Source: Holdemania massiliensis AP2
GTDB taxonomy: Bacteria; Bacillota_I; Bacilli_A; Erysipelotrichales; Erysipelotrichaceae
Assembly (NCBI RefSeq): GCF_000327285.1
Contig: NZ_HE998568.1
Location: 274,072 to 309,132 of the forward strand
Direction: 5' to 3'
DNA: 35,061 nt
The notes under the pieces were generated by a model, which searched no databases, had not been told where the DNA came from, and was given only the letters and a program-made list of their open reading frames with translations. The position numbers and the translations under genes were made by a program. Positions 17,686-32,224 of the stretch are shown in pieces. Positions within the stretch are counted from its first letter, which is position 1, and each line of letters starts with the position of its first letter.

Positions 17686-18363
17686 TCAGCTGATATCCTT
17701 CAGCTGACCTTCATTAAGATAAACACGATGATCACTGAGTTCTGATACCACATTGGAATGGGTAACAACGATAACCGTTTTCCCGAATTCCTCCGTCAGC
17801 ATCCGGAAGATCTTGATGATTTCCTGTTCTGTTGCCGTATCCAGGTTTCCTGTCGGTTCATCCGCGAAAATTAAGTCGACATTCGATGCGATCGCCCGCG
17901 CGATCGCTACCCGCTGCTGCTCGCCGCCCGACAGCTTCGTCACCAGCCGATCCGCCTTGGATTTCACAATCCCGAATTTCTCCAGCAGCGCATAGGCGAC
18001 TTCCTTCTGATTCTTCGGTATGGAATTGTCCGTTTCCGTCATCGCCAGCTCAATGTTTTCCAATCCTGTCAGATAGCTGATCAGGTTGTACTGCTGGAAG
18101 ACGATGCCGATTTTATTGCGGCGATACTTATACAGTCCGATCTTATCCAGATCCTCGCCTTCATAATAAATCTTGCCGTTTTCCTGCTTGTCCAGTCCGG
18201 CAATGATTGACAACAGCGTCGTCTTGCCGCTGCCGGATGGGCCTAAGATCGTATAGAACTGTCCCTGCTCAAACTCGTAGGACAGATCCTTCAAAATCTG
18301 ACGCTTATATCCGCCGTCTTCGTAACCGTAGTTCAGATTTTCTAATTTCAAAATCGTTGTCAT
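17686..18363 (-). CDS. ABC transporter ATP-binding protein, module A (MacB/LolD type)
   Basis: A 225-residue ATPase: Walker A GPSGSGKT (41-48), Q-loop (VFQQYNL), signature LSGGEQQ (144-150), Walker B LIFADE (164-169), D-loop, and H-loop (VTHS). Its closest type is the FtsE/LolD/MacB class, which powers mechanotransmission permeases rather than classic import. It lies 12 nt after its permease, with AAGGAGG before the ATG. It differs from the module B ATPase at only 7 of 225 positions, mostly at the two termini. Substrate unknown. Confidence 0.9.
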   Translation of the reverse strand: MTTILKLENLNYGYEDGGYKRQILKDLSYEFEQGQFYTILGPSGSGKTTLLSIIAGLDKQENGKIYYEGEDLDKIGLYKYRRNKIGIVFQQYNLISYLTGLENIELAMTETDNSIPKNQKEVAYALLEKFGIVKSKADRLVTKLSGGEQQRVAIARAIASNVDLIFADEPTGNLDTATEQEIIKIFRMLTEEFGKTVIVVTHSNVVSELSDHRVYLNEGQLKDIS

Positions 18364-18375
18364 TGTCTGCCCTCC

Positions 18376-19947
18376 TTAATTCTGATTCATCAGGATCTTC
18401 TTCGGATTAAACCGCATGATCATGAAGGATGGGATCAAAATGGAAATGAATACAACGCCGATGCCCAGGATATAGATTTCACCAATGATCATCGGATTGA
18501 TCTGAACTTCATATTCCGCTAACAGATCGTCCTGGCTGAGTTCAGTGAAGTAGTTTGTATCACCCCAGTAATAAGTTCCATTGTTCTGATCATCCAGATC
18601 ACTGTACTGCTTTTCCGTATCCACCTGATAATCCATAACCAGCTTGCCCACTTGTTTAGCGATTAAAGAACCGCTGGCTACTGATAAAGTGAATCCGATC
18701 AAGGCCACGACAATCAGTTCAACGAAGAACTGGGCCACCACCTTCATCTTGGATACCCCCATAGAAAGCAGCACGCCGATCTCATATTCCCGTGTTTTCA
18801 GCGTTAAAGCGGTGACCAGCGTAATGATAACAACCGCATTGATCGCTACAATCCAAACGATAATGTTGGAGAACAGCGACAGTGTATCCAGCGGACGCGC
18901 CAGTTTCTTAAACGTATCATTGTTCGCGTCCATCAACATATATTCTTTCAGATCTGCCTGGTGATCAGCCACAAACTCATCAACATGCAGCGGATCATCG
19001 AGTAAAAAGACCGCTTCGTTCACATACGTATAGCTTTCCGGCGTCGGTCTTTCGGCATCCAAGTAGTATTCTGGATTCTGTTCTTTTCCATACTCCCACT
19101 GCTTAATCCCCATTTGATAATAGGCATTGCCGTAAGCCAAAGCCGGCGCCAAAATGATGTTGTCCGGCGAGTTATACCGGCTCATCCATTGATATTCATC
19201 AGAATTTTCATCCAGTTCCTCATTGTTATGGAAGATACCGATAATTTCCAGCGTCATCGTAATATCTTCTTCGGTGATCCCGCTCTGTTGGTAATACTGC
19301 ATTTCACTTCGCCCAACTAAATCGATTGAGATCTGATCGCCGATCCGCAGATTATTTAGGTCCGCAAGCTTATCCGTAATCAAACAAACCATGGCACCGT
19401 TATCCACTTCTTCCTGATTATAGAACCGGCCTTCGACGACTTCATACATGTTGTCTTCCAACTCAATCATATTCGGAAAGAAATTGGTCTGCAGCCGCAG
19501 ATCCGGTTCGACATATTCAACGGTGGTTCCATCTTCATAGGTAATGCTGCCCCCGCCATTATTCTCCCGTTCATTGTTCAGCGGGACCGTTTCAAAACCA
19601 TTGGAATACAACATGTTGCTGTTAACGATATTGACGGTTTTTACCCGTTCATCGGTCATCAGATTTTTAATATCTTCCATTTTGACCTGCGGATAATTTT
19701 TGTAGGCCTCCTGCTGCTCCTCTTCCGGCAAGTTGTCAGCATAATCCCAGAAAGCCTGATAATCAACTTCATAGGAAACAACCGCCCGCATCTTTCTGCG
19801 GGTTTCGACTTTTGCTTGTTCTGAAGCGTTGTTGATGCCCAGTCCAATAATGACCAGATTTCCAATCAGGAAAAAGGTAATGGCCAGTAAAATTGACTTC
19901 GACATGCGGCGCGTTACATTTTTAAGCGCACGGGTGAAAAAATTCAT
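18376..19947 (-). CDS. FtsX/MacB-type ABC permease, module A
   Basis: A 523-residue type VII permease: membrane helix 1 at about 18-40, a large extracytoplasmic domain (about 45-350), and helices at about 360-383, 404-425 and 486-512; an FtsX domain covers the last three. Between helices 2 and 3 the cytoplasmic coupling segment TLKTREYEIGVLLSMGVSK is typical. A second extracytoplasmic insert of about 55 residues (440-485, rich in Asp/Asn/Tyr) lies between helices 3 and 4. Membrane parts are nearly identical to module B, the outer domain is diverged. Substrate unknown; lipoprotein, peptide or envelope-stress roles are known in the family. Confidence 0.88.
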   Translation of the reverse strand: MNFFTRALKNVTRRMSKSILLAITFFLIGNLVIIGLGINNASEQAKVETRRKMRAVVSYEVDYQAFWDYADNLPEEEQQEAYKNYPQVKMEDIKNLMTDERVKTVNIVNSNMLYSNGFETVPLNNERENNGGGSITYEDGTTVEYVEPDLRLQTNFFPNMIELEDNMYEVVEGRFYNQEEVDNGAMVCLITDKLADLNNLRIGDQISIDLVGRSEMQYYQQSGITEEDITMTLEIIGIFHNNEELDENSDEYQWMSRYNSPDNIILAPALAYGNAYYQMGIKQWEYGKEQNPEYYLDAERPTPESYTYVNEAVFLLDDPLHVDEFVADHQADLKEYMLMDANNDTFKKLARPLDTLSLFSNIIVWIVAINAVVIITLVTALTLKTREYEIGVLLSMGVSKMKVVAQFFVELIVVALIGFTLSVASGSLIAKQVGKLVMDYQVDTEKQYSDLDDQNNGTYYWGDTNYFTELSQDDLLAEYEVQINPMIIGEIYILGIGVVFISILIPSFMIMRFNPKKILMNQN

Positions 19948-20004
19948 TCTTCACTTCCCCCTTCATTGTTGACGGCGTCAGCCGCCTAATTTCTATGTTC
20001 TGAT

Positions 20005-20033
20005 TTTATAGTATCACAGAAGTCTGAAATCTA
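20005..20033 (-). promoter_or_regulatory. Possible promoter of ABC module A
   Basis: On the minus strand a -10 TATAAA (20005-20010) lies 17 nt from a weak -35 TAGATT (20028-20033), about 58 nt upstream of the permease start. The leader contains a small GGCG/CGCC hairpin. Together with the terminator at 20064-20097 it suggests modules A and B are separate transcription units. Confidence 0.35.
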
Positions 20034-20063
20034 AATAGCGAATTCCTTTCAATTTCATTACAG

Positions 20064-20097
20064 AAATAAGACCGAGGATTGCTCCTCAGTCTTATTT
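20064..20097 (-). terminator. Terminator of ABC module B
   Basis: AAATAAGAC (20064-20072) pairs with GTCTTATTT (20089-20097), extended inside by GAGG/CCTC with one mismatch. It overlaps the stop codon of the module B ATPase, an unusually tight arrangement. Confidence 0.85.
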
Positions 20098-20773
20098 ACT
20101 GAATATCGATCAGCTGACCTTCGTTTAAAAGCACCCGGTGATCGCTCAGTCCCGATACGACATTGGAATGGGTAACGACAATAACCGTTTTCCCGAATTC
20201 CTCTGTCAGCATCCGGAAAATCTTGATGATCTCCTGTTCCGTTGCTGTATCCAGGTTCCCCGTCGGTTCATCCGCGAAGATTAAATCCACGTTCGACGCG
20301 ATCGCCCGCGCGATCGCTACCCGCTGCTGCTCGCCGCCCGACAGCTTCGTCACCAGCCGATCCGCCTTGGATTTCACAATCCCGAATTTCTCCAGCAGCG
20401 CATACGCCACTTCCTTCTGATTCTTCGGAATCGAATTATCCGTTTCCGTCATCGCCAGTTCGATGTTTTCCAGTCCTGTCAGATAACTGATCAAATTGTA
20501 CTGCTGAAAAACAATACCGATTTTATTACGGCGGTACTTATACAGACCGATCTTATCCAAATCGTCGCCTTCATAGTAAATCTTGCCGCTCTCCTGTTTA
20601 TCCAGCCCGGCAATGATTGACAACAGCGTCGTCTTGCCGCTGCCGGATGGGCCTAAGATCGTATAGAACTGTCCCTGCTCAAACTCATAAGACAGATCCT
20701 TCAAAATCTGACGCTTGTAACCGCCGTCTTCGTAGCCATAGTTCAGATTTTCTAACTTTAATATCGTTGACAT
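20096..20773 (-). CDS. ABC transporter ATP-binding protein, module B (MacB/LolD type)
   Basis: A 225-residue paralogue of the module A ATPase with all nucleotide-binding motifs intact (GPSGSGKT, LSGGEQQ, LIFADEP, VTHS). The ATG at 20773 is chosen over an in-frame ATG at 20782 because AAGGAGG directly abuts the upstream ATG but is 9 nt from this one, and the start then matches module A. The stop lies inside the terminator stem. Near identity with module A (7 differences) and long identical DNA blocks point to recent duplication or gene conversion. It probably works with the adjacent permease, and might also serve module A. Confidence 0.9.
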   Translation of the reverse strand: MSTILKLENLNYGYEDGGYKRQILKDLSYEFEQGQFYTILGPSGSGKTTLLSIIAGLDKQESGKIYYEGDDLDKIGLYKYRRNKIGIVFQQYNLISYLTGLENIELAMTETDNSIPKNQKEVAYALLEKFGIVKSKADRLVTKLSGGEQQRVAIARAIASNVDLIFADEPTGNLDTATEQEIIKIFRMLTEEFGKTVIVVTHSNVVSGLSDHRVLLNEGQLIDIQ

Positions 20774-20787
20774 ATTCTCCATCCTCC

Positions 20788-22380
20788 TTAATTCTGATTC
20801 ATTAAGATCTTCTTCGGATTAAACCGCATGATCATAAACGTCGGAATCAGAATCGAAATGAAGACGACGCCGATGCCCAGGATATAGATTTCAGCGATGA
20901 TCATCGGGTTGATCTGCACGTTGTATTCCGCTAACAAATCCTCCTGGGTGATCTCGGTGAAGTAGTTGGTTTCTCCATAATAGAAGTTATTGCTGCTGTC
21001 ATTCTCATCCGCGTATTTATTCTCCGTATCGACCTGATAGTTCAGCACCATCTTGCCGACCTGCTTGGCCACTAATGAACCGCTGGCTACCGACAAGCTA
21101 AAGCCGATCAGCGCGACAATGACCAGTTCGATAAAGAACTGCGCCACAATCTTCATCTTGGAAACTCCGATCGAAAGCAGCACGCCGATCTCATATTCCC
21201 GGGTTTTCAGCGTTAGAGCGGTAACGAGAGTGATGATGACGACAGCGTTGATCACAACGATCCAAACGATGATGTTGGAGAACAACGACAACGTATCCAA
21301 TGGCCGGGCCAGCTTCTTAAAGGTTTCATTGTTGGCATTGAGAATGACATAATCGCCGGTCTGATCCTGATAATCCTCAACGAACTGATCAACCTGCAGC
21401 GGATCCTCCAACAGATAAACAGCCTTGGAAGCCATGTTGTAGTCTTCCTTCGTCATGATATCTTCTTCTTTATAATATTCCGGCATCGTCGTCATGTAAT
21501 AATGATACGATTTAAGATAGAAATCATAGTATTTGTCAGTAGCTGTGGTCGCCGGCATCAGCAATGTGTTCTGCGGCGATTCATAACGAGCCATCCACTT
21601 ATACTCGTCGGAATTCGGATCCAACTGTTCGTTGCTTTTATAGATACCGATGACCTCCAAGGATAGAAGCAAATCCTCCTCAGTAAGCTCGGAACCTTCC
21701 ATCTCCGCAATCTGCGACGGATCAGTAATGTTGACGCTGATCGTATCGCCGACACGCAGATTGTTCAGCTCTGCCAATTCCTTCGGAATACAGACAACCG
21801 CGGCGGAGTTGTCAATCTCTTCCTGCGTGTAGAAACGGCCATCCTGCATTTCATAGGTACCATCCTGAAATTCAATCATATCTGGATAAAGATTCGTCTG
21901 TACCCGCAGATCCGCCGGAAGCCAGCTGGCCCGCATCATGGAAACCGCGCCGTCAACCGCAGAGTCAGTGCTTTCCTGCGGGGTATAATTACTGTCAAAA
22001 TCATTGTTCAGCGGTACAGACTGGAAATCTTTGGTATACATCTGCTGCGTGGAAATGAAGTTGACGGCCTTGACCCGGCTGTCCGCTTTCAATTTTTCGA
22101 CCTTATCCAGCGTGAGCCGCGGCGAATTCTTATAAAACGCTTCGCGTTCATCGTCATCCGTAATCTTATCCGCGTCATTGTAATAAGTCGTATAATCCAA
22201 TTCCAGCGAAACGACTGCCCGCATTTTCTGACGAGTCAGAATCTTTGCGTTTTCGGCCGCATTGTTGATGCCCAGTCCAATAATGACCAGATTGCCAATC
22301 AGGAAAAAGGTTACGGCTAGAAGAACCGATTTGGACATCTTCCGTGTCACATTTTTAAGCGCTCGATTGAAAAAATTCAT
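20788..22380 (-). CDS. FtsX/MacB-type ABC permease, module B
   Basis: A 530-residue paralogue of the module A permease with the same layout: one N-terminal helix, an outer domain of about 310 residues, then three helices with an FtsX domain and an identical C-terminus (FNPKKILMNQN). The outer domain differs clearly from module A, including a Ser/Ala/Met-containing insert before ADLRVQTNLYPDMIEF, whereas the last 170 residues are almost the same. The ATG at 22380 matches the module A start; GGAAG lies 10 nt upstream, and ATG 22389 is an alternative. It starts 62 nt after the PASTA gene with no clear terminator between, so the two are likely co-transcribed. Confidence 0.88.
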   Translation of the reverse strand: MNFFNRALKNVTRKMSKSVLLAVTFFLIGNLVIIGLGINNAAENAKILTRQKMRAVVSLELDYTTYYNDADKITDDDEREAFYKNSPRLTLDKVEKLKADSRVKAVNFISTQQMYTKDFQSVPLNNDFDSNYTPQESTDSAVDGAVSMMRASWLPADLRVQTNLYPDMIEFQDGTYEMQDGRFYTQEEIDNSAAVVCIPKELAELNNLRVGDTISVNITDPSQIAEMEGSELTEEDLLLSLEVIGIYKSNEQLDPNSDEYKWMARYESPQNTLLMPATTATDKYYDFYLKSYHYYMTTMPEYYKEEDIMTKEDYNMASKAVYLLEDPLQVDQFVEDYQDQTGDYVILNANNETFKKLARPLDTLSLFSNIIVWIVVINAVVIITLVTALTLKTREYEIGVLLSIGVSKMKIVAQFFIELVIVALIGFSLSVASGSLVAKQVGKMVLNYQVDTENKYADENDSSNNFYYGETNYFTEITQEDLLAEYNVQINPMIIAEIYILGIGVVFISILIPTFMIMRFNPKKILMNQN

Positions 22381-22442
22381 ATTTCTCATTCTTCCTTTCT
22401 GGTTAAAACTCAGGGAATCAACAGAACAAGGGTACCCGTGCT

Positions 22443-24404: not shown

Positions 24405-25760
24405 ATGAACCCAAAGCAACCCTTAAAAACTTATTTTGGATAGGATTCATTCCGGGAAGGGCAGGAACTGATCATTAACGCCATTCTCTCTGGAAAAGAT
24501 GCCTTGGCCATCATGCCCACCGATGCGGGAAAATCGCTTTGTTATCAAATTCCGGCGGTCATGCTTTCAGGGGCAACCATTGTGATTTCGCCGCTGATTT
24601 CCTTAATGATGGACCAGACAAAACGCTTAACGCCGCGGGAATTCGTACAGCTTACATCAACTCCTCCCTGACGCCTGCGCAAATCACAAAAGCTCTGAAC
24701 CTAGCCGCTCAGGGAACCTACAAGCTGATCTATGTTGCCCCGGAACGATTGGAAAATGAGGAATTTATTCATTTTGCCCATAAGGCTAAAATTGCCATGG
24801 TTACGGTTGACGAAGCGCATTGTATTTCTCAATGGGGACAGGATTTCCGTCCCAGTTATGTAAAATTTGTGGTATTTGTCAAACAGCGGAACGCAAAGTG
24901 ATTAAAAGTGATGGAAAATTACTGTCCGACCACCGGCTGCCTGCGCAACTTCATTTTAAGTTATTTTGGTGAACAGCACCGCAAACCCTGCGGCCATTGC
25001 GGTCATTGCGACAGCGAATACAAAACGATGGATCTGACGACACCGGCCAAGAATGTGATCTGCTGTGTCGCTGAGATGCAGGGCCGTTATGGCATCACGG
25101 CCGTCACGGGAACCTTACTGGCGCCCAGCAAGCCCCGCTCAAAGAAATCGGGGCGCAGCAGTATACCTCCTATGGCGCGCTGAAAGGCTATCCCGAAAGC
25201 TTGATCCGGACATTGATTCGGGAGTTAATCACCCGCGGTTATCTGCATCAGACCGGCGAACAGTATCCGGTTCTTCAATTAGGCGATTACACACCGCTGA
25301 AACAGGAAACTACCCGCGTTATCTTCTAATTGCGTGTCGATCCAGAACCAGGCAAACGCCCGCAGAAGAACCGGGCGAGCAGACCGAATTCGCTTTCCGG
25401 CACAAGTTATGCTTTATTTGAAGAACTGCGCCGGCTGCGCGCAAGACTTGCAAAGGAAGAGAGCCTGCCGCCCTATGTTATTTTCAGCAATAAGACGCTG
25501 ATTGAAATTAGCTGCCGGAAAATCAGAAAGCGATGTTGAATGTTGCCGGCGCGGGCGTTCACCGGATGGAGCGATATGGGAAACGCTTTCTGAATGCGAT
25601 AGCTGAATTTATCCAAGCTCATCCTAAAGTCACAAAGCGATCAGCTTCGACAACTGAAAATCGCGCACAAAAGCCTGAATTCTATTTAACGCTTGAGGAC
25701 GCTGAAAACTTTGTTTATAAAGATCATTGTTTTATCTCAGAAATCAGAGTGGATTTAATA
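24405..25760 (+). pseudogene. recQ: Decayed recQ (ATP-dependent DNA helicase) pseudogene
   Basis: Fragments in several frames match RecQ in order. From ATG 24405 the reading MNPKQPLKTYFG hits TAG at 24441-24443 where Tyr is expected, then continues DSFREGQE. The Walker A loop reads MPTDAGKS, the usual Gly replaced by Asp (24522-24524). A one-base loss near 24620 shifts frame into [15 protein letters not shown], and DEAH is at 24809-24820. Around 24870-24900 about 200 residues of the second helicase lobe are missing; the zinc domain then appears (YCPTTGCLRNF, CGHCGHC). Further frameshifts near 25140 and 25520 break the winged-helix (LKEIGAQQYTSYGALKGYPESL) and HRDC (LFEELRRLRARLAKEE; LNVAGAGVHRMERYGKRFL) regions. 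The 3' limit is approximate. It cannot make a helicase. Confidence 0.9.
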
Positions 25761-25896: not shown

Positions 25897-26772
25897 TTAG
25901 TTGAAGTAAACCTTGTCCAGGAATGCATTCAGATCTGAACGCAGCTGCTCGATTTCTTCTCCATAGTTTTCAGACTCATTGCCTGGTGTGCGGTCATTGA
26001 CAAAGCGGCCGTAGTTCGTTGTTCCCCAGAAAGCTGAAGTATCATCATCAAAGACCTTGAAAGCGTTCATGTAGGTATCCCACTTTTCGTCTTCAATACC
26101 CACGCCGTCGCCGATATAGCCGCGTCCGCCGCCGAGGTAGCCGCAGTTCATGATCGTGAAGTAGCTCTTATCCTTTAACAAGCCTTCCAGACCGTTGGCT
26201 CCGTCCTGATACGCAAACTTCTTCGCAAAGACTTTCTCTTTATAACCTTTGACGATCGAGATTTCCGAGTCATGCCAGTTCGGATAAACAAAAATCAGAT
26301 GATCAGCCTGACTGACCAGATCCTGTTCTGCCTTGATATCCGCCGTTGGCTCACCCTGGCCATCCTTCGCATAATAGAAATCCGCGGCGGAAAGAACCGG
26401 ATTAAAGTTCATCGTGTATAAGTCGCGCATTTCGACTTCCATGCCTTTTTCTTCCATGTGTTTCATCGCTGTGCGGGCCATATCCCACAGTACGCTGTTA
26501 TGGCGCGGATCGCCGATGATAAATAAGGCTTTTTCCTTATCGCTGTCGGTGAAGCCGGCGGGTGTATAATCCTGAATGTATGCTTCCTGTACAATCGAAG
26601 CTGAAGTCACGGAATCCACCGTAGGTCCGGTAAAGCCGTCAGTGGCCGCTGTTGCTTCCGGTGTCGCGGTAACTTCCGGAGTGGTTTCCGGAGTCGGGGT
26701 TGTTTCTGGTGTCTGAGCCGCGCAGCCAGCCAGCATCAGAACCGCGGTAAAAATGAGAATCAGTTTTTTCAT
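25897..26772 (-). CDS. Exported lipoprotein with NAD(P)H-quinone-reductase-type flavodoxin fold
   Basis: A 291-residue protein. Signal peptide with lipobox LAGC near residue 17, then a low-complexity Thr/Pro/Glu linker (TPETTPTPE...) to about 50, then a flavodoxin_2-type domain (about 80-291): IIGDPRHNSVLWDMARTAM, DLYTMNFNPVLSAADFYYA, ADHLIFVYPNWHDSEISIVKGYKEKVF, and a GYLGGGRGYIGDGVG loop. This fold binds FMN or FAD and normally reduces quinones in the cytoplasm, so an outer-surface form is unusual; an electron-transfer role is inference. The ATG at 26772 is set by AGGAGG 6 nt upstream and by the signal peptide; an in-frame ORF extension to 26925 runs through non-coding repeats. It is followed by a terminator and appears monocistronic. 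Confidence 0.85.
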   Translation of the reverse strand: MKKLILIFTAVLMLAGCAAQTPETTPTPETTPEVTATPEATAATDGFTGPTVDSVTSASIVQEAYIQDYTPAGFTDSDKEKALFIIGDPRHNSVLWDMARTAMKHMEEKGMEVEMRDLYTMNFNPVLSAADFYYAKDGQGEPTADIKAEQDLVSQADHLIFVYPNWHDSEISIVKGYKEKVFAKKFAYQDGANGLEGLLKDKSYFTIMNCGYLGGGRGYIGDGVGIEDEKWDTYMNAFKVFDDDTSAFWGTTNYGRFVNDRTPGNESENYGEEIEQLRSDLNAFLDKVYFN

Positions 26773-26792
26773 GCTTTCCTCCTTGCGTTTTC

Positions 26793-26906
26793 CGAGTTTT
26801 GTGAGCAGGATCGTCCAAAAGCTCAGTTTCCGAGTTTTATGAGCAGGAAAAACTAAAAGCTCAGTTTTCGAGTTTAGCGAGCAAGAAAGAACTAAAGCTC
26901 CGCCGG
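26793..26906 (-). repeat. Three tandem 38-bp hairpin-forming repeats in the lipoprotein leader
   Basis: Units start at 26793, 26831 and 26869, exactly 38 nt apart. On the plus strand each reads CGAGTTT.., a 14-nt loop containing GAGCA, then ..AAAGCTC. In each unit GAG pairs with CTC, and five neighbouring bases pair as TTTTG/CAAAA, TTTTA/TAAAA and TTTAG/CTAAA respectively, so the helix is kept by compensating changes; one extra G is bulged. The period is not a multiple of three, arguing against coding. The block lies between a strong promoter and the ribosome site, so it would be transcribed as three successive stem-loops. Confidence 0.75.
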
Positions 26907-26955
26907 AATATCCGGCTTCCGGCATCTATTGTAGCATAATTTCCAGCAATGTCAA
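26902..26955 (-). promoter_or_regulatory. Promoter and first leader hairpin of the flavodoxin lipoprotein gene
   Basis: On the minus strand a perfect -35 TTGACA (26950-26955), 16-nt spacer and extended -10 TGC-TACAAT (26928-26933) predict a start near 26921. The leader then begins with a perfect GCCGGA/TCCGGC hairpin (26902-26916) and continues into the tandem repeats, giving a structured leader of about 150 nt. Confidence 0.8.
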
Positions 26956-30799: not shown

Positions 30800-32224
30800 T
30801 TACAGATTTTCTTCCTCCGGCGCAGCCGGGATCAGACAGATTTGATTTTTGCCTTTTTGCTTAGCCTGATACAAAGCCTGATCGGCCCGCTTCAATACCG
30901 CTTCATAATCACGTTCCTGAGGTGAAACCATCACGATGCCGACACTGATATGCACGGTTGTCTGCTGATCAATCCGCGTCAGAAACCGCTGCGCAATATC
31001 CCGGGCTTCCTGTTCCTGCTTCAGATTATTCAGCCAGACCGTAAACTCATCGCCGCCGTAGCGGCTGACAATATCATGACTGCGGACACTTTCGCGTAAA
31101 ACCCGGCTGACGCTGATCAGCACGCGGTCGCCTTCATCGTGTCCGTAATGATCGTTAATCGTCTTGAAGTCATCGACGTCAATGAACAGACAGGCACACA
31201 GCGTATGGCGGTTCTCTTTTAAGATGCGGGATGCCTGCCGCTGTGCCATCAATCGGGTATAGACGCCGGTCAGCGGATCTTTCTGCGCTTCCCTGACCCG
31301 CCGCTGAAAATACAGAATCAAATAAACTCCCGTGGCCGCCAGCAGAATGACGATCAGCAAGATCGCGGCAAGCACGCCGAAGGCGCTGGCGCTCATTTCC
31401 TGCAGGATTTTCTCATGCGCATCCATCACCACCAGCGAACAGATATACCAATCCTGAATTCCTACCGGTTCATAGTAAAGCAGCCGCAGCTGGCCGCCAT
31501 TGTAATAAGTCAGCGTGCCGCTGTTGCCGGCCAGAACTTCACTGCGCATCTGTTCCACAAGATCATCCGATTTCAGCTTCATCGTTTCCAACATTTCATA
31601 AATAGTTGCGTAGCGTTCCATCCCCGCATAAGAGGAGATGAGTTGCCCCTGCGGAGTGAAGACCAGCGTCGCCTTGGCCTTGGGATTGGCGTAATTGTTA
31701 AGTGAAGCGCCCAGAGCCGTGGTTGTAATCTCAGCGCAAACCGCTCCCTGGACTTCTCCCTGGCGGATCATCGGTACGGTCAGCACGATGCTGTCCTCTC
31801 CCTCCGGCGTCGTCAGAGGCCCGGAAATTGTCGTTTTCCGCTGCATTGCCGCCTGAAAATATTCACGATTGCTGATATCCATGACCGCCTGCTTCGCATA
31901 CGTCAAATTTCCCCGCGCATCCGCAACGCCAAAGCGCATTCCGTCCACGCTCTCCCAATTCAGGATCTTCTGCCAGTTTTCCTGTCCTTCCGCGTCCGGA
32001 ACATCGCTGATTTCAGCGATCGTTTCCAGCCAGTACAGCCGATTTTGAATGATTTGATCGAAATATAATTTATCGGACTGAGTGGTTACGACAAGATTGT
32101 TCACCGCCTGCGTAAATAATTTTTCCTGCAGGCTCTGATAAAAAATTCCCATGACTCCCAACAGTGCCGCAATGAGAAGCCCGGCCGCCAAGATGCCGGA
32201 AACCGGATATTCCTTCTTGTTCAT
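30800..32224 (-). CDS. Membrane-bound diguanylate cyclase with Cache-type sensor
   Basis: A 474-residue c-di-GMP synthase. Helix 1 at about 10-30, an extracytoplasmic double-Cache-like ligand domain (about 35-280, with QSDKLYFDQIIQNRLYWLETIAEI and the strand pattern VLTVPMIRQGEVQGAVCAEI), a second helix at about 283-309, and a cytoplasmic GGDEF domain. The active site is an exact GGDEF (390-394) in RYGGDEF, and the inhibitory I-site RSHD (381-384) is five residues upstream, so the enzyme should be active and product-inhibited. No EAL or HD-GYP partner is nearby. GAGG precedes the ATG. The gene is divergent from the dehydrogenase homologue and separates ctp-uvrB from the M23-ftsX genes. Confidence 0.93.
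   Translation of the reverse strand: MNKKEYPVSGILAAGLLIAALLGVMGIFYQSLQEKLFTQAVNNLVVTTQSDKLYFDQIIQNRLYWLETIAEISDVPDAEGQENWQKILNWESVDGMRFGVADARGNLTYAKQAVMDISNREYFQAAMQRKTTISGPLTTPEGEDSIVLTVPMIRQGEVQGAVCAEITTTALGASLNNYANPKAKATLVFTPQGQLISSYAGMERYATIYEMLETMKLKSDDLVEQMRSEVLAGNSGTLTYYNGGQLRLLYYEPVGIQDWYICSLVVMDAHEKILQEMSASAFGVLAAILLIVILLAATGVYLILYFQRRVREAQKDPLTGVYTRLMAQRQASRILKENRHTLCACLFIDVDDFKTINDHYGHDEGDRVLISVSRVLRESVRSHDIVSRYGGDEFTVWLNNLKQEQEARDIAQRFLTRIDQQTTVHISVGIVMVSPQERDYEAVLKRADQALYQAKQKGKNQICLIPAAPEEENL

Follow-up and report, generated by a model that had tools for sequence, protein, structure and literature searches.

Conserved tandem units in the 5′ leader of a Holdemania flavin lipoprotein gene, a candidate cis-acting RNA element

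Small repeated RNA units occur in the leaders of several described regulatory systems. Guanidine-II (mini-ykkC), glycine and other tandem riboswitches carry at least two such units per leader, and the BglG/LicT RAT and TRAP repeats are short RNA sites repeated in a 5′ leader. Guanidine-II hairpins carry ACGR loops. The preQ1-I riboswitch (RF00522) is an H-type pseudoknot with UU after the first strand of its first stem, an A-rich third loop, and a specificity base, a C that directly precedes the 3′ strand of P1 in the form UC or AC (PMC11625349). Here we describe three tandem units on the minus strand of a 35,061-nucleotide stretch of Holdemania massiliensis AP2 (NCBI RefSeq assembly GCF_000327285.1, contig NZ_HE998568.1, positions 274,072 to 309,132), hereafter the window. 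The units precede a gene for a flavodoxin-like lipoprotein and, judged from the sequence, probably fold in its mRNA and control it.

The array is the most prominent tandem repeat of the window. Tandem Repeats Finder reports a period of 38, 2.9 copies and a score of 126, and the runner-up array in the 35 kb scores 59. The exact 38-nt spacing of three units described in a first-pass annotation of the sequence is thereby borne out. The pattern GAGCTT-N4..16-GCTC-NNN-AAACTC was searched in 194 related genomes together with a reversed control pattern. It is present in five genomes and nowhere else in them, and the control gave one match in all. H. massiliensis, H. filiformis DSM 12042 and Holdemania sp. 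Marseille-P2844 have three units each; Dielma fastidiosa and G070, which represents another genus of the same family as Holdemania and Dielma, have two each. The first unit of D. fastidiosa reads AAACAC and is therefore missed by the exact pattern. All copies lie just upstream of an orthologue of the lipoprotein gene (70–95% protein identity). Their surroundings are of at least three kinds: the copies lie downstream of uvrB in Holdemania, follow a LysR-type gene in Dielma and have unrelated genes as neighbours in G070.

A covariance model run on 393 genomes finds the five true loci at E<=3e-8, and its other matches (E>=0.004) are taken as noise. The first-pass annotation had proposed such a search of relatives as a check; the loci were recovered, but the stem it had drawn is unsupported in the relatives, as described below. 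Among 272 genomes of the family only five full-length orthologues occur, and the element accompanies all five. It is not present at homologues of about 60% identity in Hungatella and in a Clostridiaceae metagenome-assembled genome. The inter-unit pattern, searched in 392 genomes of the phylum, matches its own genome only, and a looser pattern adds only chance-like or unrelated matches in the same genomes. In 120 stretches of viral contigs, those listed hold a single match each, taken as chance. Each genome has one locus, and no regulon was found. G023 retains only the C-terminal part of the orthologue (gene 1501–1845 of L013), with a LysR-like gene adjoining and no leader units there.

The units are conserved far beyond their surroundings. 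The 116-nt unit region shows 1–4 differences between Holdemania species (97% identical). By comparison, when the window's species is set against the other two, 50% of the gene's fourfold-degenerate sites differ, as does about 34% of the DNA upstream of the promoter. On these sequence comparisons the unit region is under strong purifying selection. The spacers and tails differ from unit to unit, yet the window's species and Holdemania sp. disagree at only one of their 57 positions (P ~2e-9 if these changed at the upstream rate). That unit-specific spacers are frozen across species implies that each unit's own spacer matters, and fits the expectation that each spacer and tail pairs with its own partner. 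Within GCTC-NNN-AAACTC, three of the four sites varying among Holdemania species fall in NNN, which is predicted to be unpaired in the pseudoknot model presented below (P 0.0013). The GAGC-GCTC spacer is 10, 11 or 14 nt long and the GCTC-NNN-AAAC spacing is rigid. The unit period is 34/35 in Dielma and G070 versus 38 in Holdemania.

The promoter scan and the AGGAGG/ATG pair confirm that the array sits between a predicted promoter and the ribosome site of the lipoprotein gene, as annotated before (Table 1). The promoter has the near-consensus form TTGACA-16-TGnTACAAT, and transcription is expected to start from it near 26920–26923. Equivalent predicted promoters stand upstream of the units in Dielma (12/12 consensus, 2831–2858 of L046) and in G070 (10/12 consensus, 1447–1475 of L032), so that all units fall inside the predicted transcript. 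In 5/5 loci the units lie in one orientation between the predicted start and the ribosome site, with about 10 nt from the last unit core to the start of the latter. As in cis-regulatory leaders generally, a conserved element thus lies in the predicted transcript upstream of orthologous genes, here at five loci in three genera. The extra GC hairpin reported earlier was also found; it is retained, with changes, in the two other Holdemania species and is not present in the Dielma or G070 leaders. On the gene strand, no terminator-like site was detected that would separate the units from the gene in the Holdemania, G070 and Dielma leaders.

Table 1. Features of the leader and the downstream gene in the window. 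S1 and S2 are the two helices of the proposed pseudoknot.
Feature	Position	Strand	Basis or remark
Predicted sigma-70 promoter	26928..26955	-	TTGACA 26955-26950, 16-nt spacer, TG before TACAAT 26933-26928; consensus scan 11/12
GC-rich hairpin, leader 5′ end	26902..26923	-	Inverted repeat and fold; Holdemania only
Unit 1	26863..26900, core GAGC...AAACTC 26870-26900	-	Proposed S1 GAGC/GCUC; best S2 UUAGUU/AACUGA, equalled by 170/1000 shuffles
Unit 2	26825..26862, core 26832-26862	-	Proposed S1 GAGC/GCUC, S2 UUAGUUUUU/GGAAACUGA; S2 equalled by 28/1000 shuffles
Unit 3	26787..26824, core 26794-26824	-	S1 intact; S2 unsupported, equalled by 578/1000 shuffles
Ribosome-binding site AGGAGG	26778..26783	-	Sequence
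Lipoprotein gene, Flavodoxin_2 / NAD(P)H:quinone-reductase-like domain, 291 aa	25897..26772	-	ATG start

In the model proposed here, each unit would form a compact H-type pseudoknot. The first helix, S1, would pair the invariant GAGC with the GCUC 10–14 nt downstream, and a second helix, S2, would join the variable spacer to the stretch that directly follows AAACUC. A short loop of UU (L1) would cross S2, and the rigid NNN-AAACUC segment would provide an A-rich loop (L3) over S1. The S1 helix is intact in 13/13 units and is returned by RNAalifold; the pairing of GAGC with GCTC that the first-pass annotation had mentioned as an alternative is thus the one retained. The proposed S2 is of the type AUGCUUU/AAAGCAU in Dielma and G070 and UUAGUU(UUU)/(GGA)AACUGA in Holdemania. 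Holdemania tails offer no pairing partner to the Dielma and G070 spacers, and the Holdemania unit-2 spacer pairs better with its own tail than with those of Dielma and G070. When tails were shuffled jointly and S2 was summed over unit types, 0/1000 shuffles were as good. The Dielma and G070 spacers are nearly identical, so the S2 evidence from these two is not independent. S1 and S2 cross to give the H-type topology, with an L1 of 1–3 nt, an L2 of 0–3 nt and an L3 of 9–10 nt in most units. Such loop lengths are typical of small pseudoknots. As modelled, a pseudoknot-like unit with a lineage-specific second helix fits the observed variation better than the stem of the first-pass annotation.

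In their modelled H-type topology, with UU following the first S1 strand and an A-rich third loop, the units would resemble preQ1-I; they also resemble it in a size of ~34–38 nt and a leader position near the ribosome site. Compared on this topology, S1 is invariant, and S2 is supported in Dielma and G070 and weak in Holdemania. However, 13/13 units have U rather than the specificity C ahead of GCUC, S2 is longer, and the units come in 2–3 tandem copies. The gene encodes a Flavodoxin_2 lipoprotein in 5/5 loci and has no queuosine link. RF00522 has no match at the gathering cut-off in the window, and a threshold relaxed to E 10 gave none on the Holdemania or G070 leader either. With U for C, no model match and no queuosine link, the units are not assigned to preQ1-I. 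A U at the specificity position would be expected, speculatively, to prefer an adenine- or diaminopurine-like face.

More broadly, Rfam 15 gives no match in the window at the gathering cut-off, and the matches of the Holdemania and G070 leaders up to E 10 are weak and far below it, in agreement with the first-pass annotation, which knew no named RNA family of this shape. The lack of an Rfam match sets the units apart from guanidine-II and the other tandem riboswitches, and ACGR loops are missing from them. They probably differ from the BglG/LicT RAT and TRAP repeats in consensus; no terminator-like site was found on the gene strand between them and the gene, and no dedicated regulator came to light. 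A literature search returned nothing on this element. It is conceivable but doubtful that the element is a new riboswitch class confined to three Erysipelotrichaceae genera. Such a class would consist of 2–3 tandem H-type pseudoknots of preQ1-I-like layout with U replacing the specificity C, sense a redox-, quinone-, flavin- or purine-like metabolite, and control how strongly a flavin lipoprotein located outside the cytosol is translated.

For the wider proposal, that tandem pseudoknots in a cis-acting RNA leader bind a small molecule or a protein and thereby set translation, we consider the chances evenly balanced. Binding of a ligand or protein to the folded units would alter how accessible the ribosome site is, the flavin lipoprotein would be translated in step with the signal, and the repeated copies would steepen the response. 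The sequence comparisons establish that the units exist, where they lie, that they go with this gene, that purifying selection on them is strong and that S2 complementarity is lineage-specific; we infer RNA action, the pseudoknot, the ribosome-site switch and any ligand. The idea of a multi-unit RNA regulator or protein-binding leader put forward in the first-pass annotation is in keeping with the strong gene-specific conservation inside the predicted transcript, but its specific three-hairpin fold fails in relatives. Possible anti-ribosome-site pairings are CUCCAAA/UUUGGAG in Dielma, CUCCAU/AUGGAG in G070 and UUCUUUCUUGC/GCAAGGAGGAA in Holdemania unit 1, whose loop is complementary to the ribosome site in a nested fold. 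The Holdemania ribosome site is predicted to be mostly paired (0.14 unpaired), with shuffled upstream sequence as good in 44/100 cases.

Several observations weigh against this proposal. Ribosome-site burial does not exceed that obtained with shuffled upstream sequence (42–57/100) and is within the range of other window genes; it is therefore not counted as evidence, and the switching step is left as inferred. The whole leader is no more stable than its shuffles (z -1.42). S1 never varies, so that covariation cannot test it. S2 was defined after the data had been seen, is marginal in Holdemania alone (70/1000 shuffles), and is lacking in Holdemania unit 3. Finally, only five loci occur in the collections searched. 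If the element acts as RNA, it would be an undescribed regulatory RNA motif of gut commensals, with 2–3 copies devoted to one gene, the protein of which is predicted to transfer electrons outside the cytosol. With a range this narrow (five genomes found), it would escape broad comparative searches. Short units and a natural variation that suggests precise mutations make the claim easy to test.

Two nested folds compete with the pseudoknot, and either appears quite improbable. In one, the units are simple protein-bound RNA hairpins with a 14-nt loop (GAG-UUUU...AAAA-CUC), which is the stem of the first-pass annotation. This stem pairs in 90.9% of cells across 11 distinct unit sequences from five genomes, and it is near-optimal for unit 3 alone. 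Yet its covariation does not exceed that of shuffled sequences, of which 156/500 reach the covariation score and 316/500 the double-change count; the compensatory paired changes claimed for it did not hold up, and it was rejected as a covarying stem. Close relatives break its pairs without compensation, contrary to the three-hairpin structure. In two of the three Holdemania species, H. filiformis and Holdemania sp., unit 2 reads TTTTA/CAAAA, which leaves an A.C without compensation at a position that had been taken as compensated. An A.A occurs in unit 1 of H. filiformis, the GAG/CUC end is broken in Dielma unit 1, and one inner pair is lost in all Dielma and G070 units. The most variable sites, the NNN triplet, overlap the 3′ arm. 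In the other fold, nested hairpins alternate: a unit's spacer would pair with its own tail plus GAGC(U) from the following unit, and this pairing would compete with the same-unit GAGC/GCUC, making a switch without a true pseudoknot. Dielma GCUUAUGCUUU/AAAGCAUGAGC forms such an 11-bp hairpin, which is the minimum-energy fold of that stretch, and a similar G070 hairpin is close to the optimum. However, conservation of the first GAGC and the last GCTC matches that of the inner copies, although this fold does not need the last unit. S2 uses the same bases, so the alternating hairpins may be an alternative state of the same switch.

The main rival, an unlikely one in our judgement, places the function in DNA, with the units serving as tandem transcription-factor sites downstream of the promoter where a repressor would form a roadblock. 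Repressors commonly have tandem sites beside a promoter, and GAGC...GCTC forms an inverted repeat. The Dielma orthologue also has a LysR-type gene as its neighbour, and the G023 remnant a LysR-like gene. The half-sites nevertheless lack the fixed spacing of a dimeric regulator's operator. Their distance shifts by 1 and 4 bp between units and genera, and the unit period by 3–4 bp, altering the helical phase. Half-sites with a free spacer would not predict spacers frozen per unit. At every locus all units face the same way and lie downstream of the predicted start and ahead of the ribosome site; this arrangement and the single locus per genome with no regulon also argue against an operator. A non-functional tandem duplication, or a part of an upstream open reading frame, is largely refuted and very improbable. 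The window's leader is open in frame with the gene (25897..26925), but neither the period of 38 nor that of 34/35 is a multiple of three, the open frame in Dielma reaches only ~17 codons above the gene, and the conservation far exceeds that of fourfold sites and upstream DNA.

The lipoprotein matches PF02525 (E 2.7e-22) and PF03358 (E 6.1e-9) and has an LPAM_1 lipobox. In a PDB profile comparison its domain groups with NAD(P)H:quinone oxidoreductases (3lcm, NQO1, NQO2). The N-terminal tether contains a conserved DxxTSAS motif at residues 53–59 (window 26596–26616, minus strand), which is also found in L047 and L048, and the Hungatella homologue carries DAVSGAT as well. These motifs resemble ApbE flavinylation sites. 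The motifs that ApbE flavinylates are [S/T]GA[S/T]-like, and the known flavinylated proteins include FMN_red proteins that carry them on extensions (PMC11334425). ApbE is encoded in 5/5 genomes with the element. The lipoprotein may possibly be a covalently flavinylated quinone-reductase-like protein.

Elsewhere in the window, two consecutive and very similar pairs of an ABC ATPase and an FtsX-like permease occupy 17686–22389 on the minus strand (starts 18363/19947 and 20782/22389) and represent a tandem duplication. Fragments of a RecQ-like helicase (VDEAHCISQWG; C-terminal CGHCGHC) lie in separate frames at 24539–25421 on the plus strand, an apparent broken gene. A 23-nt segment at the start of a GGDEF-protein gene (32191–32213, plus strand) is a 96% match to the 5′-leader hairpin (~26905–26927, minus strand), possibly by chance. 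In L207, L209, L215, L221 and L228, at ~1501–1526, a sequence of the type GAGCTTGTTTTTT(G)CAGCTCTGGAAA recurs in two Holdemania genomes; it is distinct from the unit and perhaps belongs to a terminator family.
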